Source of the DNA: a virus
Direction: 5' to 3' (one strand)
Length of the DNA stretch: 64,000 nt
Virus record (IMG/VR): IMGVR_UViG_3300020477_000990
Coordinates: 62,001-126,000 of that record
The notes under the pieces are model-generated. The model made no database searches. It saw only the letters and a program-made list of their open reading frames with translations, and was not told where the DNA came from. A program made the translations under genes and the position numbers. Positions within the stretch are counted from its first letter, which is position 1. Each line of letters opens with the position of its first letter. Positions 10,806 to 42,369 of the stretch are shown piece by piece.

Positions 10806-10892
10806 AAATAATATTACTAGTATTGCTGGTACTTGTTGAATTAGCAACCATTCGATCCATTTTTTTATTTTATAGCTTAAAGGATCTTTCAT
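10782..10892 (-). CDS. Small single-pass membrane protein (36 aa)
   Basis: A short leftward frame begins ATGAAAGATCC on the stop codon of the SET-domain gene (TAATG) and encodes a basic N-terminus followed by a hydrophobic stretch (VPAILVILFLIYYFLF). Its tail runs antisense into the last 24 bases of the oxygenase gene. Start-stop coupling and a clean transmembrane helix argue that it is real, but nothing identifies its role. Confidence 0.4.
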   Translation of the reverse strand: MKDPLSYKIKKWIEWLLIQQVPAILVILFLIYYFLF

Positions 10893-11239
10893 TAGAATAA
10901 AAACTTTTGCCCTCTCGCAAATTCTTCATAGTTCATTGTAAGTTCCACACCTTTTTTAATCTTCTTTGTAGACACAAATGTTTTTTCAACAGTTATAGTA
11001 ACCTTGGTACCTATTAATTTAAGATTAGCATCTTCACTATGATTTATATACGTATCTTCGCAATTCATGTTGTGAGTGTCATTAACTGGCATTTTTCTTG
11101 GTGCTTGTTCTTTTGGTAAAGCAGGACCTTCTAATGTTACAACAGTTTTGCCTTTAGGAATATCTTCCATAGCAAACCTACCATGTCCGTGTATATCTGA
11201 ATCTTTTATTTCTGTTTTAAACAGCCACTGGTTGGGCAT
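10892..11239 (-). CDS. SET-domain protein (candidate protein lysine methyltransferase)
   Basis: The 115-residue protein shows SET-domain landmarks in order: HGHGRFAMEDIPKG near residue 17 (SAM-binding GxG region), YINHSEDANLKL (the NHS motif), and GVELTMNYEEF (ELTxxY). It is a minimal SET domain with no pre- or post-SET extension. SET enzymes transfer methyl groups from SAM to protein lysines; similar small ones occur in bacteria and large viruses. A phage target could be a host protein or a virion protein. It overlaps the hydroxylase gene upstream on the same strand by 23 bases. Confidence 0.75.
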   Translation of the reverse strand: MPNQWLFKTEIKDSDIHGHGRFAMEDIPKGKTVVTLEGPALPKEQAPRKMPVNDTHNMNCEDTYINHSEDANLKLIGTKVTITVEKTFVSTKKIKKGVELTMNYEEFARGQKFLF

Positions 11240-12032
11240 CTGCTATAGCCTTATGTTCTTTATAATCATTGTTAATACGCAATGAACCCATATTGTTAGT
11301 TTCGTTCCAATCAGAATCATTAATTTCTTGTAAGTCTGATTGATCTTTTAAACTAAACATTAAGCTGATTCTAGGTGTTTTACCTGAATTAACTACAGTA
11401 TGTCTAAAGCCAATATTTAAAAAGTATGCTGATCCATCTGGTTCTAAATGATATGATTCTTCTTTACCTTTACGCCAAAAATAGTTTGTAGCTTCTTGTT
11501 CTGCAAATATAGGAACAATAACTCTTACGGCATACGTTGGATCGTAATCAATATGTGGAGTAAGTGTTTTGCCTGGATCAAGTCTAACAAGTCTTACTCT
11601 AATAGCATCTGCATTAAACGATTCAACTACTTCTTGAAAATAAGAACCTATGTATTTTTCTGTTGGAGTATTGTAATTGTGTTCATTAAGTCCAGGAGCA
11701 AGTCCTTTACCTAATCTAGATTTTAATTTATACTTTGCAATTTTACTAATTGCTTCATCACCAGTACCTGCTGTTTTACCCATTACTTCACAGCTTTCAA
11801 CTGTTGGTGCTTCTGCATTAGGATCAAATTCAGTAAGATTGATTTGCTTAAAATGTTTATATACACTCATAACTAATTCGTGATTGTTTGAACACAATGC
11901 CTTATTAGTTTCCATTACGTCACCATAATCATTGGCCAACTTTAAAGCTTCTTCACGAAGTCTTTCAATATCAAATTTTTTATTTTGAAACTTCCACATT
12001 GTTGGAAGTTGATACTTTTTACGAATTAACAT
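11217..12032 (-). CDS. Aspartyl/asparaginyl beta-hydroxylase-like Fe(II)/2OG oxygenase
   Basis: The C-terminal half has the oxygenase triad: LTPHIDYD (His160-x-Asp162), RHTVVNSG (His211) and Arg221, set in the strand pattern of the Asp/Asn beta-hydroxylase family (VRVIVPI, YFLNIGFRH). The N-terminal ~100 residues are of unknown fold. A leader with a late promoter (12063-12069) and an AGGAAAG ribosome-binding site precedes ATG 12032. The substrate is unknown; cellular relatives hydroxylate Asp/Asn in proteins. Confidence 0.72.
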   Translation of the reverse strand: MLIRKKYQLPTMWKFQNKKFDIERLREEALKLANDYGDVMETNKALCSNNHELVMSVYKHFKQINLTEFDPNAEAPTVESCEVMGKTAGTGDEAISKIAKYKLKSRLGKGLAPGLNEHNYNTPTEKYIGSYFQEVVESFNADAIRVRLVRLDPGKTLTPHIDYDPTYAVRVIVPIFAEQEATNYFWRKGKEESYHLEPDGSAYFLNIGFRHTVVNSGKTPRISLMFSLKDQSDLQEINDSDWNETNNMGSLRINNDYKEHKAIADAQPVAV

Positions 12033-12125: not shown

Positions 12126-12154
12126 TTGTGATTTATAGAAAGCTAGTGTATAAT
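12126..12154 (+). promoter_or_regulatory. Sigma70-type promoter of the large rightward operon
   Basis: TTGTGA, a 17-bp spacer and a perfect TATAAT are followed after only four bases by the ATG of the radical SAM gene at 12159. The transcript should start at or within two bases of the initiator codon, so translation would be leaderless. Confidence 0.6.
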
Positions 12155-12158
12155 AGTA

Positions 12159-13502
12159 ATGATAGACCCAGAAAAAAATAAAGCAATTTGTCCATATCTT
12201 TTTAAAGGGGCATTGTTGGAGCATAGTCAAGGAAACATAAGACCATGCTGTAGATGGGAAACAGATGATGTTAGAGGCGACAATGTTTGGCCAAAGAAAA
12301 ATTTTTTAATTAATAAAGATGAAAAATATAATTCATATTTTACAGAAGCTAGGCAACAGATGATAGATGGTAAACCAGTTTATGAGTGTAGAGGATGTAT
12401 TACACAAGAAAAGCATGGAATTGAAAGTATGCGTACAAATGCGTTGAAAAATTTTGTAAACGACAATGAGAGCTTAATTAAAATAGAAGATTTATATAGA
12501 AAGCCTACAGGGTTGTTAAAAGAAATAACTGTACCAAAGTTAGAATATTTAGAAATAGAAAGTGGAAGATATTGTAATTTAAAATGTAGATCATGCGGTC
12601 CTGAATTATCCACAAGTTGGGATGAGGATTTAAAATTAAGTAAAGATCTTCAAAATCATTTTTTTGGTAATGAGCCAATAAAATGGAAGAACTTATTAGA
12701 TGAAAAGTCAATAAATCAATATCTTGAAAGTATTGAATATGATACTATTAAAGATCTTAAAACAGTTAAAATAACTGGTGGTGAACCTTTTTTAAGTGAT
12801 TCAGTTTTAAAATTTTTAAATAATTTAGTTGATTTTGATATTGCTAAAAACATTATTCTGGAAGTGTTTACAAATTGTAGTTTCTTTCCAAAAGAAAAGT
12901 ACAGAGAAATTCTTCCAAAATTTAAGAGAGTTCATATTATTTTAAGTTTAGATGGTGTAGGTGAACACATGGAATTTCTTAGAAAAAAATCAAAATGGAA
13001 AGTAGTAGAAAAAGTATCTAAGTATTGGGAAGGGTTATCATTAAGCAACAAAAATATATATTTAGAAATAAATCATACAATAACTCTTTACAATGTTTTA
13101 TATATTGGAGAATTTTTGTTTTGGATATTTAAGCATTTTAGTAGAGAATTATTAGAAAAGCATAGACCAGAATTAGGAGGATTTATTAAATCAACAGAAG
13201 TATGGAATCCTAGTTACCTATGTGTGAATAATACAAGTGATATTATAAAAGAAAAAATGCTATCATCTATAAAGTCTGATCAAATCTTGCTAGAAGAAAA
13301 GCTATTAAAATTAGGATACGATGAAGAATTTTTACTACGGTTTCATATAAAAACGGTGTTCATTGAATTGTATGATTTTATTAACGGTGCAGGAAAAGAT
13401 AAAGTTAAAACGTTTATTGAGAAAGCTAATATGTTTGATTCAGTAAGAAAAGAAAATTGGAAAGAAACATTTCCAAAATTAGTAAAGATATTAAATGATT
13501 GA
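12159..13502 (+). CDS. Radical SAM enzyme with N-terminal twitch-type Cys motifs
   Basis: Cys139, Cys143 and Cys146 form the radical SAM CxxxCxxC in GRYCNLKCRSC, and KITGGEPFLSD is the SAM-binding GGE motif. The N-terminus carries extra cysteines (ICPYLFKG, RPCCRWE, CRGC) that resemble an auxiliary-cluster twitch/SPASM arrangement moved to the front, a layout I associate with phage radical SAM proteins. At 447 residues it is a close paralogue of the next gene. The reaction is unknown. It opens the 18-kb operon directly downstream of a strong promoter and overlaps its paralogue by 8 bases. Confidence 0.85.
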   Translation: MIDPEKNKAICPYLFKGALLEHSQGNIRPCCRWETDDVRGDNVWPKKNFLINKDEKYNSYFTEARQQMIDGKPVYECRGCITQEKHGIESMRTNALKNFVNDNESLIKIEDLYRKPTGLLKEITVPKLEYLEIESGRYCNLKCRSCGPELSTSWDEDLKLSKDLQNHFFGNEPIKWKNLLDEKSINQYLESIEYDTIKDLKTVKITGGEPFLSDSVLKFLNNLVDFDIAKNIILEVFTNCSFFPKEKYREILPKFKRVHIILSLDGVGEHMEFLRKKSKWKVVEKVSKYWEGLSLSNKNIYLEINHTITLYNVLYIGEFLFWIFKHFSRELLEKHRPELGGFIKSTEVWNPSYLCVNNTSDIIKEKMLSSIKSDQILLEEKLLKLGYDEEFLLRFHIKTVFIELYDFINGAGKDKVKTFIEKANMFDSVRKENWKETFPKLVKILND

Positions 13503-14757
13503 TTATAAAAAACATAAAACATTTTGTCCATACCCTATAAAAGGAGCTGTGATTGAAGGATCAAATTCTATGATTAAACCTTGTTGTAGATGGGATACTA
13601 AAAATCATAAACTAGATACTGGTGTTCCTTTTAGTTATAATAATATTTGGAAAGATATTCGTACAAAAATGTTAAAAGGAGAATATGTTTCTGGTTGTGT
13701 TAAATGCTATAAGGAAGAAGCAGATGGAAATAGAAGTATGCGTACAAATGCCTTAAAGAATTTTGTTGATGATATTAAAGATGTTAATCATTCTATAAGA
13801 GGGCCATTTGGATATAAAGAAACTATTTTGAAAACAGAATTAGAATATTTAGAAATTGAATCAGGAAGATACTGTAATTTAAAATGTAGGTCATGTAGTC
13901 CTAATTTATCTACAAGTTGGGATGAAGATTTAAAAAATAACAAAGATGCTGAACAAAATTTTTATGGAGGGAATAAAGATATTCATCCAGAAATGTTAAG
14001 TAGGCCTAGCATTAATGAATCAATAGCAGAATTAACATATAATGATTGTAAACATTTAAAAGAAATAAAAGTTACTGGTGGTGAACCATTTTTAAGTGAT
14101 GCGTTTCTTAAATTTTTAGAAAATTTAGTTGAATGGGATATATCAAAAAATATTACATTAGATATATTTACAAATTGTAGTTTCTTTCCAAAAGAAAAGT
14201 ATAGAGTATTATTGCCAAAGTTTAAATGCTCGTATATAAATTTAAGTTTAGATGCAATTGGAAAACGTGCTGAATTTATAAGAAAGAAATGTAATTGGAG
14301 TATAGTAGAAAAAGTATCCCAATATTGGGAGCAAGAATCTTTAGAGCATGATAATATTAAATTACAAATTAATCATACTGTTAGTCTATTTAATGTTTTA
14401 TACCTTAATGAGTTTATAATGTGGTGTGTAACAAACTTTAATCAAGACACATTTAATGATATTTCTTTTCTAGATCTTACAATTGTATACGGACCTGATT
14501 ATTTGTGCCTAAATAATGTTAGTGAGGTATCTAAAAATAGAATAATAAGATCATTAGAATTACAAATAATAGAACTAAAACAAAAAGTAAATTTACAAAA
14601 TGCTAGTAAATTATATGATCAAGTATTAAATACTATAAAGGGAAAAGGAACAAACTTACAAAGTATTTTTATTCAAAAAACAGAAATGTTCGATACTATT
14701 AGAAAAGAAAATTGGAAAGAAACATTTCCTGAGTTAGCAGAGGTATTAAATGTCTAA
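13495..14757 (+). CDS. Radical SAM enzyme, tandem paralogue of the 12159 gene
   Basis: Cys127, Cys131 and Cys134 (GRYCNLKCRSC) and VTGGEPFLSD give the radical SAM core. The N-terminal FCPYPIKG and KPCCRWD, and the later CVKC, repeat the auxiliary Cys pattern of the preceding gene. The two share long blocks (LEYLEIESGRYCNLKCRSC, FTNCSFFPKEKYR), which marks a fairly recent duplication. The ends are also alike (RKENWKETFP). Paired enzymes may perform successive steps or form a heterodimer. Confidence 0.85.
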   Translation: MIDYKKHKTFCPYPIKGAVIEGSNSMIKPCCRWDTKNHKLDTGVPFSYNNIWKDIRTKMLKGEYVSGCVKCYKEEADGNRSMRTNALKNFVDDIKDVNHSIRGPFGYKETILKTELEYLEIESGRYCNLKCRSCSPNLSTSWDEDLKNNKDAEQNFYGGNKDIHPEMLSRPSINESIAELTYNDCKHLKEIKVTGGEPFLSDAFLKFLENLVEWDISKNITLDIFTNCSFFPKEKYRVLLPKFKCSYINLSLDAIGKRAEFIRKKCNWSIVEKVSQYWEQESLEHDNIKLQINHTVSLFNVLYLNEFIMWCVTNFNQDTFNDISFLDLTIVYGPDYLCLNNVSEVSKNRIIRSLELQIIELKQKVNLQNASKLYDQVLNTIKGKGTNLQSIFIQKTEMFDTIRKENWKETFPELAEVLNV

Positions 14758-15970
14758 AACATTTTGCATAATGCCATTTATACATATGAACTTAAAGCCA
14801 AAAGGCTTTGTAAGTGCTTGTTGGCGTAATCATGATTCGTTAGGACATTATGGTGATAAAAAACTTAAAGAAATATGGAACAATGACAATTATAAAAATA
14901 TACGTAAAAATTTATTAAATGGAGTGCAACATGAAGGTTGTAAAAGTTGTTGGGATATGGAGAAAGCAAATATAACATCAACAAGGCAACAATGTAATGA
15001 AGATTATAAAAAATATATTCCTAAGGTAATGGAAGAAGTTGTTGATGGTGAATTGCCAATGAATGTAAAATCAATTGAATTGCGTTTTGGTAATGTGTGT
15101 GATTTAAGATGTAGACATTGCTCATCGATATATAGTTCAACTTGGGCAGTAGCAGTAAACAAACATGACGATGTCAAACGATTATTTGACAAATATCAAT
15201 TAACAGAAACAAGTACGTGGCGTGGAATTTCTAAATTACCAGTTGAAACATTTAATCAAGTAGTAAATGATATAGGACCAAGAGTAGAAGAAATAGTTAT
15301 AGCAGGTGGTGAACCTTTAATACAGCCACAGCATTATGATGCTTTAGAAAGGCTTTTACCATATGCATATCATATTACATTAGAGTATAACACTAACTTG
15401 AACAATATCATATTACAAGGTAGACACGTGAGTGATCTTTGGGTGCATTTTAAAAATGTAAATTGTCGTGTTAGTATAGATGGAGATAAAAAGATACATA
15501 GTTACTTAAGAACAGGAAGTGATTTAGAAGCAATTGAAAATAATATTAAAACATTAAAATCTGAATTGCCGGCCAATCAGTTTAATTTAACAACTACCTG
15601 TACGGTTTCTTTATATAACATTTCTAGATTTGATGATATAATTGATTATTATGTATCTTTAGATTGTCCGTTCCATTGTAGTTTAGTTCAATATCCAGAG
15701 GCCTTAAATATTCAATATATTCCAAAGAAAATGAAAGACATTATAACAAAAAGAGTTTATAATAAAATAGATAAGTTAGGAAACATTAAGGAGAATCGTT
15801 TGGCCAAGATAATTAAATGGTCAAACTATGTATTAGATTACATGAATAATACTAACATTAATAATAATATGTTGCCATCTTCAGCAAAAGAATATGTTGA
15901 AACTATGGATAGATTAAATGGAACAAACTTTTTAGAAGTGTATCCAGAGTTTAAGGAGTTTTGGCAATGA
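14750..15970 (+). CDS. Radical SAM enzyme with N-terminal twitch-type Cys motifs
   Basis: FCIMPFIHM and ACWRNHDS near the start, and CKSCW near residue 65, form the N-terminal cysteine set. Cys117, Cys121 and Cys124 (VCDLRCRHC) are the 4Fe-4S ligands, followed by IAGGEPL. The protein is more distant from the two preceding paralogues. The substrate is unknown. It overlaps the preceding gene by 8 bases and the next by 4. Confidence 0.83.
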   Translation: MSKTFCIMPFIHMNLKPKGFVSACWRNHDSLGHYGDKKLKEIWNNDNYKNIRKNLLNGVQHEGCKSCWDMEKANITSTRQQCNEDYKKYIPKVMEEVVDGELPMNVKSIELRFGNVCDLRCRHCSSIYSSTWAVAVNKHDDVKRLFDKYQLTETSTWRGISKLPVETFNQVVNDIGPRVEEIVIAGGEPLIQPQHYDALERLLPYAYHITLEYNTNLNNIILQGRHVSDLWVHFKNVNCRVSIDGDKKIHSYLRTGSDLEAIENNIKTLKSELPANQFNLTTTCTVSLYNISRFDDIIDYYVSLDCPFHCSLVQYPEALNIQYIPKKMKDIITKRVYNKIDKLGNIKENRLAKIIKWSNYVLDYMNNTNINNNMLPSSAKEYVETMDRLNGTNFLEVYPEFKEFWQ

Positions 15971-17127
15971 ACGATTTAAAATGGAGTGAATATGATTTTA
16001 CAAAAATTCCGTACGATGATCTCGTTCGTGTGGGACAACGTACTATGCTGTATCGGGATCTTTTTACAGTCAGTTGGCTTCTTGGTAGGTTTTGTAACTA
16101 TAGGTGTAGCTACTGTTGGCCGTATGCTAGGAGTGACAGAAAAGATCATAGGCCTACTGAGTTATGTCTTGCCACCATTGATGAGATCAAAAGACAAGCG
16201 AGAGATAGAGGATTTAATTCTTTCCACTTCTCACTTTCTGGCGGCGAGCCTACATTTCATCCTGGTTATATTGATATTCTACAGCATCTCGCTGATGATA
16301 CGCCAAATACTAATTATACTTCTGTCCATATGACAAGTAATTGTTCTAGAAATATGAAATGGTTTGAAAAATATGTACAAGCAGTCGCACCGTTCCATAG
16401 AGCCAGTATCACGGCTTCTTACCACAGGGAACACGTTAACACACAAGAAAAAAGATCAGAGTTCGCAGACAAATTATGTTATGCACAAGAACACGATGTC
16501 CAAGTTACAATCAACCAAGTTATGGTACCAGAATGGTTTGATGAACTATATGAGGAATCATTATACTTCCACGATAGAGGTATTAACGTTACGCTCAAAC
16601 CTCAATCGGATCCAACAGCGTCAACGGTTGTTGAAGGCTACACGGATGAAATGCTTCAAAAGTTATACAATGGTATGCCACAACGAGGATTTACAGAGGA
16701 AAAAAATAAACACGTAGAAAGACCAAAACCTACATTTAAAATAGATGATGATAGAACATTGCAAAAGCAAACATATTCAGAAGGTGTGCCACAGCATTTT
16801 CAAGTAGAGTTTAAAGACAAAGATAACAAAGCATGGTTTATGGATCAAGCAGAAAGATTTAATGCGTTTAATTTTAATAAGTTTAGCGGATGGGAATGCT
16901 CATCTGGATATAGATCAATTATTATTAGAGAACCAGATGGCAGTATAAAAAGGAGTTATAGTTGCCATGATGAACCACTTGGAAATATTGAAACAGGATT
17001 TAAATTATTTGACAAGCCAGAAAAATGTATATCACCAAGTTGCGTATCAAGTGCTGATTCAAAGATACCAAAAAGAGCTAAAGGAACTAAATTACCTTTA
17101 TGGCCAGGAGATAAATCATACGCATGA
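15967..17127 (+). CDS. Radical SAM enzyme lacking the N-terminal Cys module
   Basis: The start is taken as ATG 15967 (ATGA overlap) instead of an upstream TTG. Cys43, Cys47 and Cys50 (FCNYRCSYC) and SLSGGEPTFH define the core, close to the N-terminus. C-terminal cysteines (WECSS, YSCHDE, CISPSC) may bind an auxiliary cluster, as in SPASM enzymes. The closest relative in the window is the gene at 55874. The first ~700 bases are clearly richer in G+C (about 47% in a sampled 60-base stretch) than the remainder (about 32%), which suggests a recombinant or recently acquired 5' part. Confidence 0.82.
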   Translation: MNDLKWSEYDFTKIPYDDLVRVGQRTMLYRDLFTVSWLLGRFCNYRCSYCWPYARSDRKDHRPTELCLATIDEIKRQARDRGFNSFHFSLSGGEPTFHPGYIDILQHLADDTPNTNYTSVHMTSNCSRNMKWFEKYVQAVAPFHRASITASYHREHVNTQEKRSEFADKLCYAQEHDVQVTINQVMVPEWFDELYEESLYFHDRGINVTLKPQSDPTASTVVEGYTDEMLQKLYNGMPQRGFTEEKNKHVERPKPTFKIDDDRTLQKQTYSEGVPQHFQVEFKDKDNKAWFMDQAERFNAFNFNKFSGWECSSGYRSIIIREPDGSIKRSYSCHDEPLGNIETGFKLFDKPEKCISPSCVSSADSKIPKRAKGTKLPLWPGDKSYA

Positions 17128-17657
17128 GCGAATTAATAAAAAAGTTTGAAACAAATTTTGATTTGTATAAGATGATTGACTGTTTAGAAACTGTTGTATC
17201 TAAAACACCATGGCACTCTAAAGAAAATCAAATTGCCATTCAAGTTAGAAATGGTAGTACAGATTGGCATGATGGTTTAGGTAAAGCCGCAGTACAAACA
17301 GATAAAGGTTGGGAAGAATCTGTAAATGAGCAAGAGTATACACATATTCATCCTGAGCTTAAAGGATCATACTTTGAAGAAGTATTAAACAATTTACCTT
17401 TTAAACCTGTTAGAGCTAGGCTTATGCGTTTAATACCAAAACGTTGTTATTCAACACATTATGATTTTACTGGAAGATATCATTTAGCATTAATAACAAC
17501 TCATCATGCACATTTTGTTTTTGTAAAAGATCAGAAAGTAATTCATATACCATCAGATGGATGTTTATATTATGTAGATACAACTAAAATGCATACAGCA
17601 TTAAACGGTGCTACAGAAGATAGAATACATTTAGTAATAGGAGAAGCTAATGAGTAA
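17124..17657 (+). CDS. Aspartyl/asparaginyl-hydroxylase-like oxygenase
   Basis: This 177-residue protein has THYDFTGRYHLAL (His-x-Asp ligands), a short strand with HIPSDG, and TKMHTALNGATEDRIHLV with the second His and a following Arg. The order and spacing match the protein at 35834, which ends RVHLV in the same way. It lacks an N-terminal extension and looks like a bare catalytic domain. The substrate is unknown; placement among radical SAM genes suggests a hydroxylation step on the same product. Confidence 0.65.
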   Translation: MSELIKKFETNFDLYKMIDCLETVVSKTPWHSKENQIAIQVRNGSTDWHDGLGKAAVQTDKGWEESVNEQEYTHIHPELKGSYFEEVLNNLPFKPVRARLMRLIPKRCYSTHYDFTGRYHLALITTHHAHFVFVKDQKVIHIPSDGCLYYVDTTKMHTALNGATEDRIHLVIGEANE

Positions 17658-18555
17658 TATTGTTGAAAAAGAAAAACTTAATATTACCAATGAAATGTTT
17701 GGAGAAAGTAAAGCAATTCATTCTCCAGTTGATTATAAAATTAAAAATAATTTAAAAACATCAGTTGGTACTTATGTTGAAAGCACAAATGAAAACGACA
17801 AAACGCCTTCTGTTAAAAGAAGAAAACGTTGGGAAAATTGTCAAGAACAAATTCGTACGTTTTTAAATCCAATAGTAGATTTAAGCAGTTTAAAATATGC
17901 TTATCCAACAAATGGTATACATGAAAGTATTGATTGGATGTGTAATAAAATTGGAGCATATCAAGTTTTTGAAGGTGAATATAGGTATTCAACGTTTATG
18001 AAAAAGCCAATTCGTGTAGCAAAAACAGTAGATGATATTATACCTGGAGTACCTTTGTATATGAGTAATCCTTTTAGTGCAACAGGAAATTTTGATAAAA
18101 GGTATGATGAAGTTTGTGAAACTTATAAAGATGTTCCTGTTTACTTAGACATGGCTTTTATTGGAACAACAGGTCCACATATAGTTAAAATATATCCAAA
18201 TGTTGAACAAGTATTTTGGAGTGTTTCTAAACCATGGGGGCTTGGGTTGTTAAGAGCAGGAGTAAGGTTTTCACGTGAGGTGGAAGTAATACAAAGAGAG
18301 TTACAAGGTGTTGGGTATTTTAACCATGCTAACATTGATGTATTTAGAGAAGTTATATTATCAAGTTCTGTATTTGCTAAAAAAGAACAATATGGAAATT
18401 TACAAAAGCAAATATGTGAACAATTTAATTTAATTCCTAGTGATAGTTATTTACTGGGAACTACAAAAGATGAAGAATGGAGTAGATTTAAAAGAGAGGA
18501 CGGAACTAATAGAGTTTGTTTAACACCAGCATATGAAAAGGTAATGAATGATTAA
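17650..18555 (+). CDS. PLP-dependent aminotransferase-like protein, fold type I
   Basis: The strongest evidence is SVSKPWGLGLLRAGVRF around Lys194, which matches the S-x-S-K-x-x-G-l-x-G-l-R-x-G lysine loop of class I/II aminotransferases. YLDMAF (Asp for the pyridine nitrogen) precedes it at the expected distance, and YPTNGIHESIDWM resembles the cofactor-phosphate turn. At 301 residues it is shorter than usual (about 390), so it may be trimmed. The amino donor and acceptor are unknown. It overlaps both neighbours by 8 bases. Confidence 0.6.
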   Translation: MSNIVEKEKLNITNEMFGESKAIHSPVDYKIKNNLKTSVGTYVESTNENDKTPSVKRRKRWENCQEQIRTFLNPIVDLSSLKYAYPTNGIHESIDWMCNKIGAYQVFEGEYRYSTFMKKPIRVAKTVDDIIPGVPLYMSNPFSATGNFDKRYDEVCETYKDVPVYLDMAFIGTTGPHIVKIYPNVEQVFWSVSKPWGLGLLRAGVRFSREVEVIQRELQGVGYFNHANIDVFREVILSSSVFAKKEQYGNLQKQICEQFNLIPSDSYLLGTTKDEEWSRFKREDGTNRVCLTPAYEKVMND

Positions 18556-18823
18556 AGTTTTCTTTATAGCAAAAATAAAAAATTTTGATGAAGAATATTA
18601 TGATTATAGTAAAAGAGTTAGAGAAAAAGCAGAGACTATGCCCGGGTTCATAAATATTATATCAGAAGAAAAAGATGATGTTGAAATTACAATTAGCTCA
18701 TGGAAAACAAAAGAAGATGTAGAAGCTTGGAGGAAAGATCCATTGCACATGGAAGCAAAAGCAAAAGCAAAAGAATGGTATCATTGGGTTAAAGGAATTC
18801 ACGTAGAGGCAGTAGATGAGTAA
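18548..18823 (+). CDS. Antibiotic-biosynthesis-monooxygenase (ABM) fold protein
   Basis: The 91-residue sequence has the dimeric alpha-beta-barrel pattern of the ABM superfamily: a first strand (KVFFIAKIK), a helix, MPGFINIISE, then VEITISSWKTKEDVEAWRKDPLH. ABM proteins include cofactor-free monooxygenases and haem-degrading enzymes. Here it most resembles the small stand-alone type found in biosynthetic clusters. Function is inferred from fold only. Confidence 0.65.
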   Translation: MIKVFFIAKIKNFDEEYYDYSKRVREKAETMPGFINIISEEKDDVEITISSWKTKEDVEAWRKDPLHMEAKAKAKEWYHWVKGIHVEAVDE

Positions 18824-19343
18824 ACGTATAGCAATAACAGGAAATACTAAAAGAATAGGTAAAGCAATATACGAAGCATTTCCAAATTCAGTTGGATGTG
18901 GCAGAGGCGATGGCGGTGATATTACAACTATAGAAGGAAGAACAATGATACTTCATCAAGCAATGAGGTGTGATGTGTTTATTAATAATGCTCATGATGG
19001 TTTTAGTCAAGTTGAAATGTTGAATATGATGTTTACTGCTTGGAAAGATAAAGAAGATAAACATATTATTAATATTGGTACTGATGCTGTACCTTATACA
19101 GATTGGCAAGTTGTTCATAGGCAATATCCTATTGAAAAAATGGCTCTTCATGCTCAAGCTGAAATGTTACAAAGTCAAGAACGTAAATGTAAGATAACAA
19201 CTTTAGCATTAGGTCATGTAGATACAGAATTTAATAAAGAATATAATGGTCCTAAATTGTCGTACAATAGTATTGTAGATACAATTAAATGGGTTATAGA
19301 TCAGCCAACAGAAATAAAATTTATAGTAGTGAGTGCAAAATGA
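18816..19343 (+). CDS. Short-chain dehydrogenase/reductase (SDR)
   Basis: TGNTKRIGKAIYE is the nucleotide-binding turn, INNAHDGFSQVEML matches the NNAG region, INIGTDA is the catalytic-strand region and YPIEKMAL gives YxxxK. The protein (175 residues) is the third SDR of the window and shares the INNA-x-x-x-x-SQV wording with those at 4485 and 5087, so all three are probably one lineage. The substrate is unknown. Confidence 0.8.
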   Translation: MSKRIAITGNTKRIGKAIYEAFPNSVGCGRGDGGDITTIEGRTMILHQAMRCDVFINNAHDGFSQVEMLNMMFTAWKDKEDKHIINIGTDAVPYTDWQVVHRQYPIEKMALHAQAEMLQSQERKCKITTLALGHVDTEFNKEYNGPKLSYNSIVDTIKWVIDQPTEIKFIVVSAK

Positions 19344-20185
19344 TAAATTGGCTAATTAAAAAACCAAGTTATACAATATTGTGTAATGAGATATTTTATA
19401 ATAAAGATAAATCAATCTCTTGTGAAATAATAATTCCTGAGGTAGTTAATAATGCTAAAGTTAAAACTATAGGGATTTGGCATTCAGGAGGAATAGATTC
19501 AACAATGTTGTTGTATTTGTTAGCTAAAATAATAAAAGATAATAAGTTAGATATAAACATTCAACCAGCAACTGTCGGAATAGATTCAAGTAATAAATCT
19601 AATCTTTTAAAATATTTAAAACAATGGCATACAGCTCTTATAGAAAATCAAGATGTATCTAAAATAATAGCAAATCTTGAAGGACATAATTTATCAAATT
19701 ATATAACAGGTCCAATGCATTCAAAAGCTACAATTGATAAGATTAGTAAGTTATTAGATATTGATTTTATATTACCACAAATAGTATCGTTTGCAGACCT
19801 AACACTTAAAAGTGTTTGGAATGGTTATTTTGATACAGAAAAAGAAAATATAAAAAACGGAGTATGGAATATTTTGTATACAGGAAGAAATGCAGTTCCA
19901 CCAGATGAATTATTTGATAGAAGTCCATTTCATGAGATGATTCCATTTTGGGAATCTAGAGAGCCTGGAGTTGTACACGAAACAATTTCAGATGATGGAT
20001 CAGAATCAAAACCTTTTAGCAATGTAGATAAAAAATTTATAGCTGAATTATACGAGCAGTATAATTTATTAGATGAATTGTTTCCATTAACAAAATCGTG
20101 TTTTGATCCTTATGTTAATGGAACAAAAGGTTGTGGTAAATGTTTTCATTGTTTTGAAAAGCAATATGGATTTGGAGAATATTAA
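19340..20185 (+). CDS. QueC-like PP-loop ATPase with Cys4 zinc motif
   Basis: The start is set at ATG 19340, on the stop codon of the SDR gene. SGGIDS (from Ser49) is the PP-loop that binds ATP pyrophosphate in QueC, GMP synthase and ExsB-type enzymes. The C-terminus has a Cys motif in the style of QueC (SCFDPYVNG, then CGKCFHC). QueC turns a carboxylate into a nitrile to make preQ0; relatives adenylate other carboxylates. No QueD, QueE or FolE is visible, so a preQ0 pathway is not shown. It shares the block KKFIAELYEQ..LFPLTKSC with the proteins at 45901 and 57130. Confidence 0.72.
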   Translation: MINWLIKKPSYTILCNEIFYNKDKSISCEIIIPEVVNNAKVKTIGIWHSGGIDSTMLLYLLAKIIKDNKLDINIQPATVGIDSSNKSNLLKYLKQWHTALIENQDVSKIIANLEGHNLSNYITGPMHSKATIDKISKLLDIDFILPQIVSFADLTLKSVWNGYFDTEKENIKNGVWNILYTGRNAVPPDELFDRSPFHEMIPFWESREPGVVHETISDDGSESKPFSNVDKKFIAELYEQYNLLDELFPLTKSCFDPYVNGTKGCGKCFHCFEKQYGFGEY

Positions 20186-21666
20186 TGAGTAAAACATATT
20201 GGGGTATATGTGGGTTAGGACATGATGGTGCTCTGTCTGTTGTTAAAGATGGTGAAATACTTTTTGCTGGGCATACTGAAAGATATACAAGGCAAAAGAA
20301 TGATCCAGATTTATGTCCAGAAATTATTAATGAAGCATTAGAATATGGTGAACCAGATAAAGTTATTTGGCATGAAAGACCATGGCAAAAAAAACGTAGA
20401 CAATTATATTCAGGACAATTTAATGAAGCATTTAGTCTAAGTAACTTGCCATCACAATATATGAAAACAGTTTTTAAAACTAAATTAAGTTATGTTGGCC
20501 ATCATAAATCACACGCGGCGGCAGGAGCATTTACATCTCCATATGAATCTGCCTGTGTTATAGTAGCAGATGCAATAGGTGAGTTTGATACAATTTCAAT
20601 ATGGGATTATGTTGCTCCAGGTAAATTAACAAAATTAAAAACGTATCAATATCCAAATAGTTTAGGATTATTATATTCAGCATTTACACAAAGAGTCGGG
20701 CTAACACCAAATGAAGAAGAATATATTCTAATGGGTATGGCGGCGTATGGTGAGCCAAAGTATGCTGAAGATATTGAAAGAACATATTTTAGTAAACAAG
20801 ATCCATTTAAATTAATGCAAAATGTTCATGCAGGAGTGCAAGATTGGATGCCTCATATACCAATGATCGATGATCAATTTAAGTATGATACTGCCGCATC
20901 AATACAAATGGTAATTGAAAAGAAAGTATTAGAATTATTTAATATGGCAAAAACATTAAGTTCAAAAAAGAATTTAGTATGGATGGGAGGTGTTGCATTA
21001 AATTGTGTAGCAAACTCTTTATTGTTGAGGAAGAATCAAAATATATGGGTTATGCCTAATCCAGGTGATGCTGGTAATTCATTAGGCGCCGCGGCACTAG
21101 GGTATGGTGGTAAAGTAAATTGGCAAGGACCTTTCTTAGGTACAAACATTGAAGGAGACTATCCTGTTGATTCTGCCTGTGAAGCATTAATGAAAGGAAA
21201 TATTATTGGTGTAGCAAGTGGTAGAGCAGAGTTTGGTCCTAGAGCATTAGGTAATAGATCATTACTTGCTGATCCACGTGGTAGTAAAATTAAAGATAGA
21301 GTAAATGAAATTAAGAAGAGACAAAAGTTTAGACCGTTTGCCCCTGCTATACTTGAAGAACACGTACATGATTATTTTACAATGCCTGGTGGTATTACGT
21401 CATCACCATATATGCAGGCAGTTGCAATATGTAGAAAACCACAAGAGTTTCCAGCAATTATTCATGCTGACGGAACTTCTCGTGTACAAACAGTTACACA
21501 AAAAGAAGCTCCAGGATTTTATAATTTAATTAAAAAGTTTTACGATCAAACTGGCTGTCCAATGCTTTTGAATACATCTTTAAACATTAAAGGTGAACCT
21601 TTGGTAAATACTAGAGCACACGCAGATGCGTTTGAAACAGAACATAATGTGAGGGTTTATTCATGA
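20185..21666 (+). CDS. Carbamoyltransferase (NodU/CmcH/TobZ family)
   Basis: At 493 residues the protein shows an N-terminal Kae1/YrdC-like region (GHDGALSVVKDGEI, HHKSHAAAGAF, VADAIGEFD) and the C-terminal signature SGRAEFGPRALGNRSLLADP. These are typical of O-carbamoyltransferases, which use carbamoyl phosphate and ATP to carbamoylate sugars or antibiotics. The family is slightly longer (about 550 residues). It lies between a QueC-like gene and a nucleotide-sugar dehydrogenase, so a sugar-containing acceptor is plausible. The acceptor cannot be deduced from the sequence. Confidence 0.85.
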   Translation: MSKTYWGICGLGHDGALSVVKDGEILFAGHTERYTRQKNDPDLCPEIINEALEYGEPDKVIWHERPWQKKRRQLYSGQFNEAFSLSNLPSQYMKTVFKTKLSYVGHHKSHAAAGAFTSPYESACVIVADAIGEFDTISIWDYVAPGKLTKLKTYQYPNSLGLLYSAFTQRVGLTPNEEEYILMGMAAYGEPKYAEDIERTYFSKQDPFKLMQNVHAGVQDWMPHIPMIDDQFKYDTAASIQMVIEKKVLELFNMAKTLSSKKNLVWMGGVALNCVANSLLLRKNQNIWVMPNPGDAGNSLGAAALGYGGKVNWQGPFLGTNIEGDYPVDSACEALMKGNIIGVASGRAEFGPRALGNRSLLADPRGSKIKDRVNEIKKRQKFRPFAPAILEEHVHDYFTMPGGITSSPYMQAVAICRKPQEFPAIIHADGTSRVQTVTQKEAPGFYNLIKKFYDQTGCPMLLNTSLNIKGEPLVNTRAHADAFETEHNVRVYS

Positions 21667-22877
21667 AAAATACAAAAATAAAAGTAGCAATGATTGGTTG
21701 CGGTAAGCTAGGTCAAGATTGTGCAGAAGTTATGGCTGAGAATTATTTTGTTGAAGGGTTTGATATTGAGCCAAGACAACCAGAAAATTTTAAAATGCAA
21801 TCAACTATTAAAGAAGCAGTTAAAGAAAAAGATATAGTTTTTATTGCGGCACCAACACCACATGATCCAAGGTATGATGGTTCAACACCAACTGCACATT
21901 TGGAACCAAAAGATTTTGATTATACAATTGTAAAAAATATTTTAAGTGAAGTAAATCAATTTGTTAATAAAAAGCAATTAGTAGTTTTAATATCAACAGT
22001 ATTACCTGGCACTACAAGACGTGAACTTGAACCTTTAATTACAAATGCAAGATTTGTTTATAATCCTTATTTAATAGCAATGGGATCTGTTAAATGGGAT
22101 ATGGTTAATCCAGAAATGGTTATGATTGGTACAGAAGATGGATCTAAAACAGGTGATGCAAAAGAATTAATAGATTTTTATAAACCAATGATGCAAAATA
22201 AACCAAGGTACATAGTAGGAACTTGGGATGAATGTGAATCAATAAAAATATTTTATAACACATTTATATCAGCAAAGATTGGGTTAGTTAATATGATTCA
22301 AGACGTAGCAGAAAAGCAAGGTAATATTAATGTTGATGTAGTAACATCTGCACTTGCATATTCTGATATGCGTATTATGGGTCCTAGATATATGACAGCA
22401 GGTATGGGCGATGGAGGTGCTTGTCACCCTAGAGATAACATTGCTTTACGTTGGATGGCAGATAATTTAGGATTAGGATATGATTTATTTGATGCTATAA
22501 TGGGAGCAAGAGAAGTTCAAGCAGAAAATTTAGCAAAGAAATGTATGGAATATAATTTACCAATTGTTATAGTTGGTAAAGCATATAAGCCACAGGTTCC
22601 ATATACAAATGGATCATATAGTTTATTAATTGGACATTACATTGAAAAAGCAGGGAGAACTTTGTACTACCAAGATGAGCATACAGGTGATAAGCCACCA
22701 AAAGATTTAGGAAGGGCAGTTTATCTATTAGCACATAATCCAAAAGTTACATACGGAACAGATGATACAGCAAAGTATGATTTTCCAAAAGGTTCTATAA
22801 TACTTGATCCATGGAGACAATGTCCACAGATAGAAGGATGTCGAGTTGTCGAGTATGGAAACACAAGAAACATATAA
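21663..22877 (+). CDS. UDP-glucose/GDP-mannose dehydrogenase family protein
   Basis: It has the N-terminal NAD-binding Rossmann start (MIGCGKLGQD), the TVLPGTTR segment, the catalytic-loop Cys in MGDGGACHPRDN, and the C-terminal UDP-binding-like region (VGKAYKPQVPYTNGSYS). The family oxidises a nucleotide sugar twice to the uronic acid. The 404-residue length is normal. The N-terminal PTPHDP motif replaces the usual TPxxxxG wording, so the exact sugar is uncertain. It overlaps the carbamoyltransferase by 4 bases. Confidence 0.82.
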   Translation: MKNTKIKVAMIGCGKLGQDCAEVMAENYFVEGFDIEPRQPENFKMQSTIKEAVKEKDIVFIAAPTPHDPRYDGSTPTAHLEPKDFDYTIVKNILSEVNQFVNKKQLVVLISTVLPGTTRRELEPLITNARFVYNPYLIAMGSVKWDMVNPEMVMIGTEDGSKTGDAKELIDFYKPMMQNKPRYIVGTWDECESIKIFYNTFISAKIGLVNMIQDVAEKQGNINVDVVTSALAYSDMRIMGPRYMTAGMGDGGACHPRDNIALRWMADNLGLGYDLFDAIMGAREVQAENLAKKCMEYNLPIVIVGKAYKPQVPYTNGSYSLLIGHYIEKAGRTLYYQDEHTGDKPPKDLGRAVYLLAHNPKVTYGTDDTAKYDFPKGSIILDPWRQCPQIEGCRVVEYGNTRNI

Positions 22878-24228
22878 TAAATTTTTAGAAATTGCTAAAA
22901 AATATAAACATTTTTGTCCTTTGGTATATAATCATGTACATATAGGAACAACGAATGCTAAATCATATTGTTGTGTAGCCAAGGGTAATGAGATAACTAG
23001 GAACAAAAAACTTACAGACTATTGGAACTCAGAAATTGTTAATAAAGATAGAGCCGATATGTTATCTAATAGTCCTAAAGGTAAATTAAAAGAATGCACG
23101 ATTTGTTGGGACGAAGAGGAGATAGGTGCAAAGTCATATAGACATTTAGCTATTGAGAGATATGATCTTAATGAAAACGATAGCACAAAAGACGAAGTAT
23201 TAAAATTGATAGAAAACGTAGAGGCAGTTGAACAAGGCAATGAAGTACCTCATATGCCAACTAGTTATGATATAAAGTTTGGTAACTTATGCAATTTAAA
23301 ATGTCCCTCTTGCAATCCAGATAATAGTTCACAGATATATAAAGAAATAAAAGAAAATAAAAAAATATTTAATGAAATTGATAATGAACATTATTATTTA
23401 ACAACTGAAAATGATTTCAAATGGATAGAAAATAAAGAATGGTGGAAAGTTTTTGAAGAAGCAACAGCAACGCCAACGAAATTGTACAGATTTAAATCAA
23501 CAGGTGGAGAACCATTACTTAATAAATCACTTATAACTTATTTAAAAAAATTAATAACTGATGGAAAAGCAAAAGATATAAAATTAAATCTTGTAACAAA
23601 TGGAATTAAAATCTCAAAAGACCTTCTTGTAAATGTTTTAAATAAATTCAAGAGATGTAGTTTAACAATTAGTATTGATGGAACTAATAAGGAATATGAA
23701 TATTTGAGATTTCCAGGTAAATGGAAAGTATTAGATGGTAATGTAAAACAAGGTTATAAACTTGATATTAAAAATGTAAAATTTATGATTCATCCTACAT
23801 TATCAGCTATGAATATTTTATCTATTCTTCAAGTTTATGAGTATGCTTTAGGTGTTGGTACTTTGAAAGATCCGAATGTTGGCAATAGAGAATTTTCTAA
23901 GATAAGTTCATTTGCTATGGCATGGGATCCAGAGCATATTTGTATAACTAATTTATTAAATGATAATATGAAAACAAAAGTAATAGATTATTATAATAAT
24001 TATATCGATAGGTTTGAAAAATCTTATCCTTTTGCTAAAAAACGTGTTAAGGAAGAGTATATTTCACAATTTAAAGATATAATTAAATTAGTTAAACGTG
24101 CAAAAGCAGATCCAGTTTATATTCAAAAATTTGTAAAGTATATTAAAATAATCGATAGTATAAGAAATATTAGTTTTGAAAAAAGCTGTCCTAAAGAGTA
24201 TCACTTATTTAAAGAATATTTTGAGTGA
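22855..24228 (+). CDS. Radical SAM enzyme with N-terminal twitch-type Cys motifs
   Basis: ATG 22855 is preferred to a TTG nine bases upstream. FCPLVYNHVH and SYCCVAKG, then CTICWDEE, form the N-terminal cysteine set. Cys146, Cys150 and Cys153 (LCNLKCPSC) with KSTGGEPL form the radical SAM core. At about 457 residues it is one of the longest of this type here. It overlaps the dehydrogenase gene by 23 bases and is the last gene before a new promoter, so it probably closes the first transcription unit of the operon. Confidence 0.83.
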   Translation: METQETYNKFLEIAKKYKHFCPLVYNHVHIGTTNAKSYCCVAKGNEITRNKKLTDYWNSEIVNKDRADMLSNSPKGKLKECTICWDEEEIGAKSYRHLAIERYDLNENDSTKDEVLKLIENVEAVEQGNEVPHMPTSYDIKFGNLCNLKCPSCNPDNSSQIYKEIKENKKIFNEIDNEHYYLTTENDFKWIENKEWWKVFEEATATPTKLYRFKSTGGEPLLNKSLITYLKKLITDGKAKDIKLNLVTNGIKISKDLLVNVLNKFKRCSLTISIDGTNKEYEYLRFPGKWKVLDGNVKQGYKLDIKNVKFMIHPTLSAMNILSILQVYEYALGVGTLKDPNVGNREFSKISSFAMAWDPEHICITNLLNDNMKTKVIDYYNNYIDRFEKSYPFAKKRVKEEYISQFKDIIKLVKRAKADPVYIQKFVKYIKIIDSIRNISFEKSCPKEYHLFKEYFE

Positions 24229-24253
24229 CATTCGTTATTAAATAGTATATAAT
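24225..24253 (+). promoter_or_regulatory. Sigma70-type promoter for the reductase/oxygenase operon
   Basis: GTGACA, a 17-bp spacer and TATAAT overlap the stop codon of the radical SAM gene. The reductase ATG at 24276 follows with an AGAGGAA ribosome-binding site. Confidence 0.55.
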
Positions 24254-24275: not shown

Positions 24276-25034
24276 ATGATTAATAAAGAAAAAGTAACAC
24301 ATATAAAGCATTGGAATGATAAAACATTTTCATTTAAAACTACAAGGAATTTTCCAAATAAGTTTAATAATGGAGAATTTGCTATGATAGGCATAGAGCA
24401 TGAAGGTAAAAAATTATTTAGGGCTTATTCATTTGCTTCAGCTAATCATGAAGACTATTTAGAATTTTTATCGATTAAGATACAAGATGGTCCGCTAACA
24501 TCAAAGTTACAGCATATTAAAGAAGGTGATGAAATATTAATTAATAGTAAAGCAACAGGCACACTTGTAATTGATTATTTGCTACCTGGACGTAATTTAT
24601 ATTTAATTGCAACTGGTACAGGACTTGCACCTTTCTTAGGAATAATAAAAGACCCAGAAACATATAATAGGTTTGAAAAAGTTATACTTACACATACAGT
24701 TCAGTATGAAAATGAATTAGCATATCATGAACCACTTAATTGGTTTAATGAAGAATGGAAAACACTTACACAAGGAAACTTTAAATACTTTAATACATTA
24801 ACTCAACAAGAATGGCCACGTAAAGGACGAATTACAAAATGGATTAAGAATAATGCGTTATATACACAAACAACTGGTGAAGCATTAGATGTAGAAAAAG
24901 ATAGATTTATGATATGTGGCTCGCAAGGTCTTAATAAAGATTTAATAGAGCATTTTGAATCATTAGGTATGCAGGAAGGTAATACATCTACACCTGCACA
25001 ATTTGTAGTAGAGAAGGCATTTGTACAAAGATGA
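24276..25034 (+). CDS. Ferredoxin/flavodoxin-NADP+ reductase (Fpr-like)
   Basis: RAYSFAS (about 48-54) is the FAD-binding RxYS motif, GPLTSKL is the family segment that contacts the flavin phosphate, and IATGTGLAPFLG is the NADP-binding turn. The C-terminus keeps MICGSQGLNKDL and ends in a short tail. At 252 residues it matches bacterial Fpr. These enzymes move electrons between NADPH and ferredoxin or flavodoxin, which reduce radical SAM clusters and membrane desaturases, both abundant here. It overlaps the next gene by 4 bases. Confidence 0.9.
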   Translation: MINKEKVTHIKHWNDKTFSFKTTRNFPNKFNNGEFAMIGIEHEGKKLFRAYSFASANHEDYLEFLSIKIQDGPLTSKLQHIKEGDEILINSKATGTLVIDYLLPGRNLYLIATGTGLAPFLGIIKDPETYNRFEKVILTHTVQYENELAYHEPLNWFNEEWKTLTQGNFKYFNTLTQQEWPRKGRITKWIKNNALYTQTTGEALDVEKDRFMICGSQGLNKDLIEHFESLGMQEGNTSTPAQFVVEKAFVQR

Positions 25035-25696
25035 TAGTATTCACACCATTAGATATACCACCAATTCCAAACAAACAATCAATACTAGATAATTTTATCG
25101 GTAATGAAAAATTTGCATGGTGGAAAGAAGAAACATTATTAGGAATTAAAGATTTATCAAAACCTTTTGGTGAACCTAAAGAATGGACAAGTAATGCAAA
25201 AGAAAAATATCCACAGTTAGTAGAATGGATAGATACATATTTTCCTTTTGAGTATAAATTTTATGTAAGGATAGCAAGGTCAACAGGAAACGTTGATCCA
25301 CACGTAGATGGAAATTATGTTAAAGCACCACACCCACATCACATGACAATTACTCAAGAAATGTTTGATCATCAAAGAGCAAATGAGCCAATAGGTTATA
25401 GATTTGTTGTAAGTGGGTCTAGAAATACTTTGTATATGTGCAATGATTATAATTACAGTAAGGATATGAGTAATCAACCTAAGCATTTTTGTACAATACC
25501 AAATGAAACAGATGCATTTTTAATTAATAATTGTACACAACCACATGGAGTTGACGTTAAACCAAATATAGATGATGATCGCATAGTAGGATTTATACTT
25601 GGTAAAGTAGTGCCAGAAGCACACCAAAAACTTATTGAAAGAAGCCAAAATAAATATAGTAAACAGGTTGTAAAAAAAGATGAGTTACGAATATAA
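25031..25696 (+). CDS. Fe(II)/2OG oxygenase-like protein
   Basis: DPHVDGNYV supplies a His-x-Asp pair near residue 95, and NNCTQPHGVDV a second His near 177, with an Arg in DDRIVGFILG. This is the jelly-roll oxygenase ligand order. The central region is rich in His (APHPHHMTI). The family is not named with confidence; it lies nearest the Asp/Asn-hydroxylase-like group. It sits between a reductase and a desaturase, overlapping the latter by 17 bases. Confidence 0.55.
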   Translation: MIVFTPLDIPPIPNKQSILDNFIGNEKFAWWKEETLLGIKDLSKPFGEPKEWTSNAKEKYPQLVEWIDTYFPFEYKFYVRIARSTGNVDPHVDGNYVKAPHPHHMTITQEMFDHQRANEPIGYRFVVSGSRNTLYMCNDYNYSKDMSNQPKHFCTIPNETDAFLINNCTQPHGVDVKPNIDDDRIVGFILGKVVPEAHQKLIERSQNKYSKQVVKKDELRI

Positions 25697-26411
25697 ATTA
25701 AAATTAATATTATTAGCAAATCATATATTATTAGCAATAGGCTTGATCTATGCTGATTTAAGTTGGTTATGGTTATCTCTAGTAGGGTGGATTATGTTTG
25801 GTAAAGTTGGTGGAGAAATTGCTTTACATAGATACCTATCACATAGAAGTTTTGAAACTTCCTATTGGAAGTCAAGAATGCTAATAGTATTGAGTATGTT
25901 TAATTGCTTTGGGTCACCTATTGCTTGGTGTGGAATACATAGAAAGCATCATGCAGTTCCAGAAACAAAAGAAGATCCACATGGTGGTCAAGCAATGTGG
26001 AAAGTATGGACAACTTTCTGGGAACCATTTACTATTGAAAGAAAGTTCGTAGTTGATTTAATTAAAGATAAATGGATTACATTTATACATAAACATTATC
26101 TTAAGTTATTAATAGGAATATATGGTGCTATCGCTTTAATAGACTGGCGTATAGCAGTATTTTTAATATCTATACCAGCAGTAGTAACGTTTCATAGTGC
26201 AGGAATGGTTAATACAATATGTCATAAATGGGGGTATAGATTGTTTAATACACCCGATAAAAGTACAAATAATACTTGGGTTAACTTATTAACACTAGGT
26301 AGTGGATTGCATAATACACATCATGAAAAACCAGCAAGTTGGAATAATAAAGAAAAATGGTGGGAAATAGATTTTCCTGCTTGGGTTATTAAAACCTTTT
26401 TAAAGGCATAA
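25680..26411 (+). CDS. Membrane fatty-acid desaturase, second copy
   Basis: Histidine boxes HRYLSH, HRKHH and HNTHH are present in the correct order within a hydrophobic 243-residue frame. It is related to, but clearly diverged from, the desaturase at 2267 (shared GGxxxxHRxLSH, W-x-G-IHRKHH and GxGLHNxHH). Electrons could come from the ferredoxin reductase two genes upstream. Two different desaturases suggest different positions or chain lengths, or a non-fatty substrate for one of them. Confidence 0.87.
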   Translation: MSYEYKLKLILLANHILLAIGLIYADLSWLWLSLVGWIMFGKVGGEIALHRYLSHRSFETSYWKSRMLIVLSMFNCFGSPIAWCGIHRKHHAVPETKEDPHGGQAMWKVWTTFWEPFTIERKFVVDLIKDKWITFIHKHYLKLLIGIYGAIALIDWRIAVFLISIPAVVTFHSAGMVNTICHKWGYRLFNTPDKSTNNTWVNLLTLGSGLHNTHHEKPASWNNKEKWWEIDFPAWVIKTFLKA

Positions 26412-32956: not shown

Positions 32957-32977
32957 TCATATATTTTAAAGTATAAT
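32949..32977 (+). promoter_or_regulatory. Sigma70-type promoter of the tmRNA gene
   Basis: TTGACT, a 17-bp spacer and TATAAT. The predicted start site near 32984 lies just upstream of the acceptor piece. Confidence 0.65.
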
Positions 32978-32983
32978 TACTAT

Positions 32984-33235: not shown

Positions 33236-33252
33236 CAAATAAATATATGTAT

Positions 33253-42361: not shown

Positions 42362-42364
42362 ATA
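42358..42364 (+). promoter_or_regulatory. T4-type late promoter, leaderless geometry
   Basis: TTAAATA covers the stop codon of the sulfotransferase gene and stands exactly 5 bases before ATG 42370. Confidence 0.45.
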
Positions 42365-42369
42365 CAAGT

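Follow-up and report, generated by a model that had tools for sequence, protein, structure and literature searches.

In pelagimyophages, a UDP-glucose 6-dehydrogenase (UGD) encoded together with glycosyltransferases has been interpreted as part of O-chain modification (PMC7029224), and a cyanophage study assigns its carbamoyltransferase gene to the initial step of pyrimidine synthesis (PMC9146016). Here, we describe a block of twelve consecutive, intact and overlapping open reading frames (ORFs A to L) on the + strand, at positions 12159-24228 of a 64,000-nucleotide stretch of viral DNA (the window), which corresponds to bases 62001-126000 of the 328,149-base record IMGVR_UViG_3300020477_000990. 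The glycan/lipopolysaccharide (LPS) clusters of T4-like cyanophages and pelagimyophages such as Bellamy and HTVC008M resemble the block in their UGD (K is 72% identical to that of Bellamy), in a carbamoyltransferase of the same family and in a PP-loop ATPase encoded alongside (PMC3037559, PMC7029224). A second likeness is offered by the marine T4-like virus TARA_ERS488813_N000010, which combines 12 radical S-adenosylmethionine (SAM) genes and an Fe-S assembly gene in one phage (PMC5332604).

Our results show that the block is a real, conserved biosynthetic unit, and its product is probably a sugar. That it forms a nucleotide-sugar or glycan tailoring pathway making an O-carbamoylated, uronic-acid-derived and radical-SAM-edited sugar is, in our judgement, about an even bet. 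An earlier note on this DNA, made from the sequence alone, had proposed dedicated biosynthesis rather than ordinary nucleotide metabolism, and this proposal is supported by a gene order kept in five contigs, by purifying selection and by recurrence in dozens of phage loci.

Gene content and conservation of the block

The twelve genes, all on the + strand, are as follows.

A, 12159-13502, +: twitch radical SAM protein (NF033640, 250 bits, cut-off 170; CNLKCRSC and GGEP)
B, 13495-14757, +: twitch radical SAM protein (NF033640, 279 bits)
C, 14750-15970, +: twitch/SPASM radical SAM protein (NF033640, 324 bits; SPASM; 69-87% identical in relatives)
D, 15961-17127, +: radical SAM protein outside NF033640 (PF04055, 51 bits)
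E, 17124-17657, +: Asp/Arg-hydroxylase-like 2-oxoglutarate (2OG) oxygenase (PF05118, 29.5 bits, cut-off 22.6)
F, 17650-18555, +: pyridoxal phosphate (PLP)-aminotransferase-like protein (motifs NPFSATGN and SKPWG; no family hit)
G, 18548-18823, +: small ABM/DUF3291-like protein (both hits under curated cut-offs)
H, 18816-19343, +: short protein resembling short-chain dehydrogenases/reductases (SDR; weak hits; TGNTKRIG for TGxxxxIG, YPIEK for YxxxK; 63-76% identical in relatives)
I, 19340-20185 (first possible start 19289), +: PP-loop ATPase with a QueC-like C-terminus (PF06508, 24.9 bits, cut-off 22)
J, 20185-21666, +: O-carbamoyltransferase (phrog_1601, 'Nol-like'; PF16861, 190 bits; PF02543, 143 bits)
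K, 21663-22877, +: UDP-glucose/GDP-mannose dehydrogenase-like protein (PF03721 and PF00984, 60 and 59 bits, above cut-offs; phrog_9148, 344 bits)
L, 22846-24228 (ATG start 22855), +: twitch radical SAM protein (NF033640, 274 bits)

The evidence for a sugar begins with K and J, for which the predictions of a nucleotide-sugar dehydrogenase and a carbamoyltransferase both held. K has the two UGD domains as well as GDGGACHPRD and AKI, which provide the catalytic Cys and Lys of UDP-glucose 6-dehydrogenases; it scores 136 bits on TIGR03026, under the cut-off of 190, and would, as a UGD-like protein, act on an NDP-hexose. J has both carbamoyltransferase domains above their gathering scores and the EFGPRALG motif; it lies outside the aspartate carbamoyltransferase family, and its own family transfers O-carbamoyl groups.

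All five predicted radical SAM proteins carry CxxxCxxC and GGEP. With membership of the twitch family defined as an NF033640 score over the curated cut-off of 170 bits plus CxxxCxxC, A, B, C and L belong to it and D, at 40 bits, does not. D has four conserved C-terminal Cys and is 68-93% identical in 10 viral loci, and neither C nor D has a relative in cultured phages at 1e-20. A and B are paralogues (~46-49% identical), and the relatives hold a single A/B-type gene in the B slot, 40-44% identical. Among the remaining proteins, the hydroxylase-like oxygenase was found as expected in E, while the aminotransferase assigned to F turned out weaker than claimed, its motifs being present but a family hit lacking. 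F is 58-73% identical in 9 viral loci and 30% identical to the 'putative aminotransferase' of Pelagibacter phage Mosig; its structure model has a mean pLDDT of 44, and PLP aminotransferases top a list of weak fold matches (E 0.02 or worse), which, along with the motifs, suggests that F may be a PLP aminotransferase. Likewise, the ABM and DUF3291 matches behind the proposed ABM fold of G do exist, but below their cut-offs.

The block is tightly packed, with overlaps of 8 bases at A-B, B-C, E-F, F-G and G-H, 10 at C-D, 4 at D-E and J-K and 1 at I-J. The H-I overlap is 55 bases from the first ATG (19289) and 4 from the ATG at 19340, which is the likelier start, the first-start call probably being wrong; K and L overlap by 32 bases, or by 23 with the ATG at 22855. 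The overlaps of 1 to 23 bases described earlier for nearly all junctions agree with these values, the 23 being that of L from 22855, and of the two gene numbers given in the earlier note, eleven in its title and twelve in its list, the latter is correct.

A search for synteny, proposed in that note as a check, revealed the same gene order in five IMG/VR contigs (L002-L006), so the refutation that the note foresaw from a lack of synteny in every relative did not come about. The shared order consists of a B-type gene, C, D, an oxygenase-like gene, F, H, J, K, a ferredoxin-NADP reductase-like (FNR) gene and the conserved gene q02, with a desaturase gene in 3/5, and is preceded by a divergent SET gene and, in most, an oxygenase gene (the L004 contig is truncated upstream). 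C, D, F, H, J and K are 63-93% identical across the five contigs, and pN/pS was 0.06-0.38 in all eight genes tested (0.10-0.38 for the core against the window; pS was high in most), which shows that the block proteins are maintained by purifying selection. Other positions vary. A and I are not at this place in any of the five; the E slot holds another protein, with an Asp_Arg_Hydrox score of 18.9 bits (cut-off 22.6); a relative of L occurs only in L004 and L005, at 31% identity; and G is present in L004 and L005, while other ORFs fill its slot in L002 and L006, the latter having a cytidylyltransferase-like ORF (PF01467) at the G/I slot. The core of the block is constant and its finishing genes are exchangeable, with A, E, I and L swapped or lost.

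The association extends beyond close relatives. J has homologues at 49 viral loci, with a radical SAM ORF within 10 kb in 42/49, against 69% of 21-kb windows of this phage, and at least three such ORFs in 35/49, against 19% of the same windows, which come from a genome already rich in radical SAM genes. Neighbours at these 49 loci include epimerases (21), a DegT aminotransferase (14) and MetK (10), as well as SGNH-like and amidinotransferase-like genes (MetK and the last two were identified visually by their motifs and not through Pfam). K-type UGD relatives occur in at least 597 viral stretches. Among the best 80 loci plus three annotated records, twitch radical SAM genes accompany the UGD in 55/83, a carbamoyltransferase in 37/83 and D-, F- and H-type genes in 21/83, 13/83 and 9/83, respectively; these counts are indicative, since the gene families are BLAST clusters and the K and J locus sets partly overlap and include near-duplicates.

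Two contexts of the UGD can be distinguished. In Bellamy and in marine virus AG-345-E15, whose UGDs are 72-73% identical to K, the gene sits with a GHMP-type kinase, an epimerase, glycosyltransferases, a carbamoyltransferase and a NadE-like gene; HTVC008M has the row carbamoyltransferase-NadE-UGD, and the clusters of all three are free of twitch radical SAM genes. In large phages, the K-type UGD is found with twitch radical SAM arrays, D, F, desaturase, SGNH and r02 genes, r02 being a family with the motif TEKTFKPI...QPFI that is present in 55/83 K-type loci and has copies at window 42352-43746 and record 148604-155696. The window belongs to the twitch-array context, an undescribed variant, and the Bellamy-type context anchors the assignment to sugars. 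UGD and O-carbamoyltransferase are common to both contexts and so point to an O-carbamoylated hexuronic acid.

Further combinations were seen elsewhere. A second radical SAM array lies at record 289668-296372 (L072), with an amidinotransferase-like gene at 292806-293888 that carries DGGxHCxT; a weak BLAST match had placed this gene with DegT aminotransferases, but it has no Pfam match and the alignment is amidinotransferase-like. In a 381-kb phage contig with a D-type radical SAM gene, an AMP-binding (adenylating) enzyme and a saccharopine-dehydrogenase-family protein are encoded at 12225-16230 (L082).

Product of the block

Gene content, motifs, order and selection are demonstrated above, and from them we infer an enzymatic chain. 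K would oxidise C6 of an NDP-hexose to give a uronic acid, and A, B, C, L and D would make radical edits on the sugar, such as epimerisation, dehydrogenation, deoxygenation or C-C chemistry. F and H may introduce or interconvert amino and keto groups, E may hydroxylate, I may adenylate and then amidate the carboxylate in the manner of NadE- or QueC-type enzymes, and J would O-carbamoylate a hydroxyl, as its PDB relatives do on natural products. Which variant of the product is made could depend on the swapped genes A, E, I and L. The finished sugar would enter a glycan, most likely the host surface polysaccharide, altered during infection so that rival phages are blocked, or else the virion fibres.

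Several results weigh against this interpretation. The assignments of F, G and H are weak, and I is missing in the relatives save for a distant PP-loop protein encoded elsewhere in the row of L002, so amidation would be lineage-specific at best. Pfam matched no glycosyltransferase within the block, and a genome-wide search, made for the family PF00535 only, gave no match in the record; r02 looked like a glycosyltransferase by eye, but it has no Pfam, PHROGs or credible PDB match and is not claimed as one. The loci compared were selected for their kinship with K or J and contain near-duplicates. NadE-like and twitch radical SAM genes co-occur in 0/83 K-type loci, where 7.3 would be expected, which makes the Bellamy cluster a cousin with a different pathway. 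Lastly, twitch enzymes of this type have, to our knowledge, no established substrate.

Of the four products named in the earlier note, the sugar or glycan is favoured by the UGD, the O-carbamoyltransferase, the epimerase, DegT and amidinotransferase-like neighbours and the Bellamy, HTVC008M and AG-345-E15 clusters, and the modified nucleobase is disfavoured by the lack of PF00303 and TGT discussed below. Modification of a peptide or protein, in which the twitch/SPASM radical SAM proteins, the 2OG oxygenase, the PP-loop enzyme and the aminotransferase would act on a phage or host protein (a fibre or ribosomal protein, for example) or on a small peptide, is unlikely. SPASM/twitch radical SAM enzymes often have peptide substrates, and proteins or lipids are the targets of Asp/Arg-hydroxylase relatives. 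In fold, I is closest to Cap9 (E 3.5e-5), a QueC-like enzyme that joins a nucleobase to a protein (PMC13329287, PMC13279940). However, a UGD and an O-carbamoyltransferase are atypical of peptide pathways, the neighbours of J and K in relatives are sugar enzymes, and no gap inside the block between its overlapping ORFs could hold a precursor peptide gene.

A diffusible small molecule, that is, an aminoglycoside- or moenomycin-like compound or a cofactor released into the cell or the water, we consider quite unlikely. The enzyme classes fit natural-product tailoring: the PDB relatives of J (GdmN, TobZ and the novobiocin carbamoyltransferase) carbamoylate hydroxyls on natural products, actinobacterial genomes contain J homologues at 48-50% identity, and twitch radical SAM enzymes and amidinotransferases occur in aminoglycoside pathways. 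Against this, no scaffold-forming enzyme, exporter or resistance gene was recognised in the block, and no bacterial gene cluster of matching content was seen, with an ORF caller that performs poorly at high GC.

Hypermodification of DNA is very unlikely. Here, J would carbamoylate a hydroxymethyl-pyrimidine, or K would supply glucuronate for the phage DNA; the DNA of Bacillus phage SP-15 carries glucuronate, and a distant UGD (25% identity) is found in that phage. A phage carbamoyltransferase is also known to make 5-carbamoyloxymethylcytosine, but in that study the carbamoyltransferase stood with a thymidylate synthase only on modified contigs, unmodified contigs having other neighbours such as glycosyltransferases (PMC8670742). 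In the 328-kb record, which may be incomplete, no thymidylate-synthase/dCMP-hydroxymethylase homologue (PF00303; 9/14 controls positive) and no TGT (PF01702), the TGT/DpdA-type transglycosylase expected for 7-deazaguanine DNA modification, was detected, and their absence weakens the case for DNA modification. A PTPS gene lies ~188 kb away, and TET/JBP gave no match in a search that had no working positive control.

Finally, a set of unlinked auxiliary genes or headful-packaging stuffer, adjacent by chance, is highly improbable: 'stuffer' has been proposed for cyanophage LPS genes (PMC3037559) and relatives have lost or exchanged A, E, I and L, but purifying selection acts on 8/8 genes tested, the junctions overlap and the same families stand together in unrelated phages.

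The recurrence of twitch radical SAM genes beside a phage-type UGD and carbamoyltransferase gives these enzymes a concrete candidate substrate class, and, with so many viral stretches encoding a relative of K, the matter reaches well beyond this phage. Should a new sugar prove to be the product, multi-step radical chemistry on surface glycans or virions would be shown to be carried out by phages, marine-phage carbamoyltransferase genes would have to be read differently and new enzymes would be on offer. A broader idea, which we regard as doubtful though not without some chance of being right, is that large phages encode a widespread modular system (UGD, twitch array, carbamoyltransferase, amidinotransferase-like or PP-loop finishers and a dedicated cofactor supply from SufB/SufC, B12-receptor-like uptake and a B12 radical SAM enzyme) that would act as a natural-product pathway for a family of sugars or glycosides of new structure, which would be either secreted or displayed.

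Genomic setting and possible cofactor supply

The genes and sites flanking the block are listed by position.

399-2213, +: TonB-dependent receptor, nearest to a B12 receptor model (TIGR01779, 200 bits, below the cut-off of 600)
3019-4485, +: SufB, Fe-S cluster assembly (NF008773, 903 bits, cut-off 717)
6294-8075, +: B12-type radical SAM protein (PF04055; KedN5-family model, 157 bits, below the cut-off of 700; 81-93% identical in relatives)
8847-9530, +: SufC (TIGR01978, 241 bits, cut-off 213)
9517-10095, +: short SufD-like protein (TIGR01981, 132 bits, below the cut-off of 222)
10892-12032, -: divergent pair, SET-domain protein (10892-11239) and Asp_Arg_Hydrox protein (11217-12032)
12126-12154, +: sigma-70-like match TTGTGA-17-TATAAT, 5' of A, within the 126 bp between A and the divergent gene (such matches not above the chance count)
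24276-25034, +: FNR (PF00175, PF00970; NF008178, 132 bits, below cut-off; next gene in 5/5 relatives)
25031-25696, +: q02, conserved protein with no Pfam hit (73-86% identical in relatives)
25680-26411, +: fatty-acid-desaturase-family protein (PF00487, 57 bits; same order in L002, L003 and L006)

The conserved unit probably extends to 26411. The desaturase family also adjoins F, UGD and twitch radical SAM genes in five further loci (L140, L141, L145, L147 and L148), and both divergent genes are present in L002, L003 and L006, with SET alone in L005. Transcription from one strong promoter, as proposed in the earlier note, was not upheld: the TTGTGA-17-TATAAT site exists, but 125 promoter-like sites were found against 124.9 expected from shuffled sequence, and a second such site, matching 11/12, lies at 24225-24253, directly before the FNR gene.

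The upstream Suf genes, TonB receptor and B12 radical SAM gene may provide the array with Fe-S clusters and cobalamin, to which the downstream flavin reductase may add electrons. No Suf genes were seen within the examined stretches of L002-L006. The whole record holds 14 genes above the twitch radical SAM cut-off and ~22-23 radical SAM genes altogether. GC is ~27-34% in the block region.

The source is a giant phage, probably marine. A terminase gene (PF03237) at 228.6 kb of the record agrees with a tailed phage, a marine origin is suggested by cyanophage, pelagiphage and seawater relatives, and most of the closest records are from viral metagenomes. In an attempt at host assignment, a SufB match was obtained in 2/4 metagenome-assembled genomes, the only four searched. 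Translation genes are also encoded in this phage (EF-G, ribosomal L11, IF-3 and bS21, all above Pfam cut-offs, at record 266007-281145, L071), along with ClpX and DnaK recognised by eye in the same region, and a tmRNA lies within the window at 32952-33270.

Comparison with described systems

I shares with the QueC, QatC and Cap9 family (PMC13329287, PMC13279940) a PP-loop SGGxDS motif, here SGGIDS at residue 49, and a C-terminal CxxCxxC, preceded in I as C-x10-CxxCxxC and in the QueC zinc motif as C(x)8CxxCxxC. The QueC motifs YxQxHxxE and VPxRN are absent and I scores 17.8 bits on the QueC model TIGR00364 (cut-off 150.3), so the PP-loop and QueC-like C-terminus of the predicted ligase stand, but its membership of QueC does not. 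A pattern scan of viral contigs gave no relatives of I, which has two paralogues in the window, at 57130-57846 (-) and 45901-46698 (-), one adjoining radical SAM genes and the other TauD-like genes. The NadE-like gene at 275.7 kb of the record, 52-55% identical to those of Bellamy, AG-345-E15 and HTVC008M, was rejected as an orthologue of I, from which it is separate.

Moenomycin and aminoglycoside tailoring employ B12 or twitch radical SAM enzymes, uronic-acid amidation and O-carbamoyl transfer. The block is like them by enzyme class only, genes for a lipid carrier, a cyclitol or a glycosyltransferase not being seen in it. The carbamoyltransferase of the 5-hydroxymethylcytosine system has the same two Pfam domains as J, but that system requires a thymidylate-synthase-type dCMP hydroxymethylase, which was not found in the record (PMC8670742). 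In TARA_ERS488813_N000010, the radical SAM genes are read as Fe-S metabolism, and the accessible part of the report describes no link to a UGD, a carbamoyltransferase or sugar enzymes (PMC5332604). Clusters of the Bellamy/HTVC008M type contain glycosyltransferases and a sugar kinase and epimerase but no twitch radical SAM genes, whereas the block has a radical SAM array and no recognised glycosyltransferase. Taken together, UGD, carbamoyltransferase and radical SAM array, for which the accessible part of the open-access literature yielded no published link in phages, form a variant next to the radical-SAM-rich phages and the phage O-chain UGDs that are already known.

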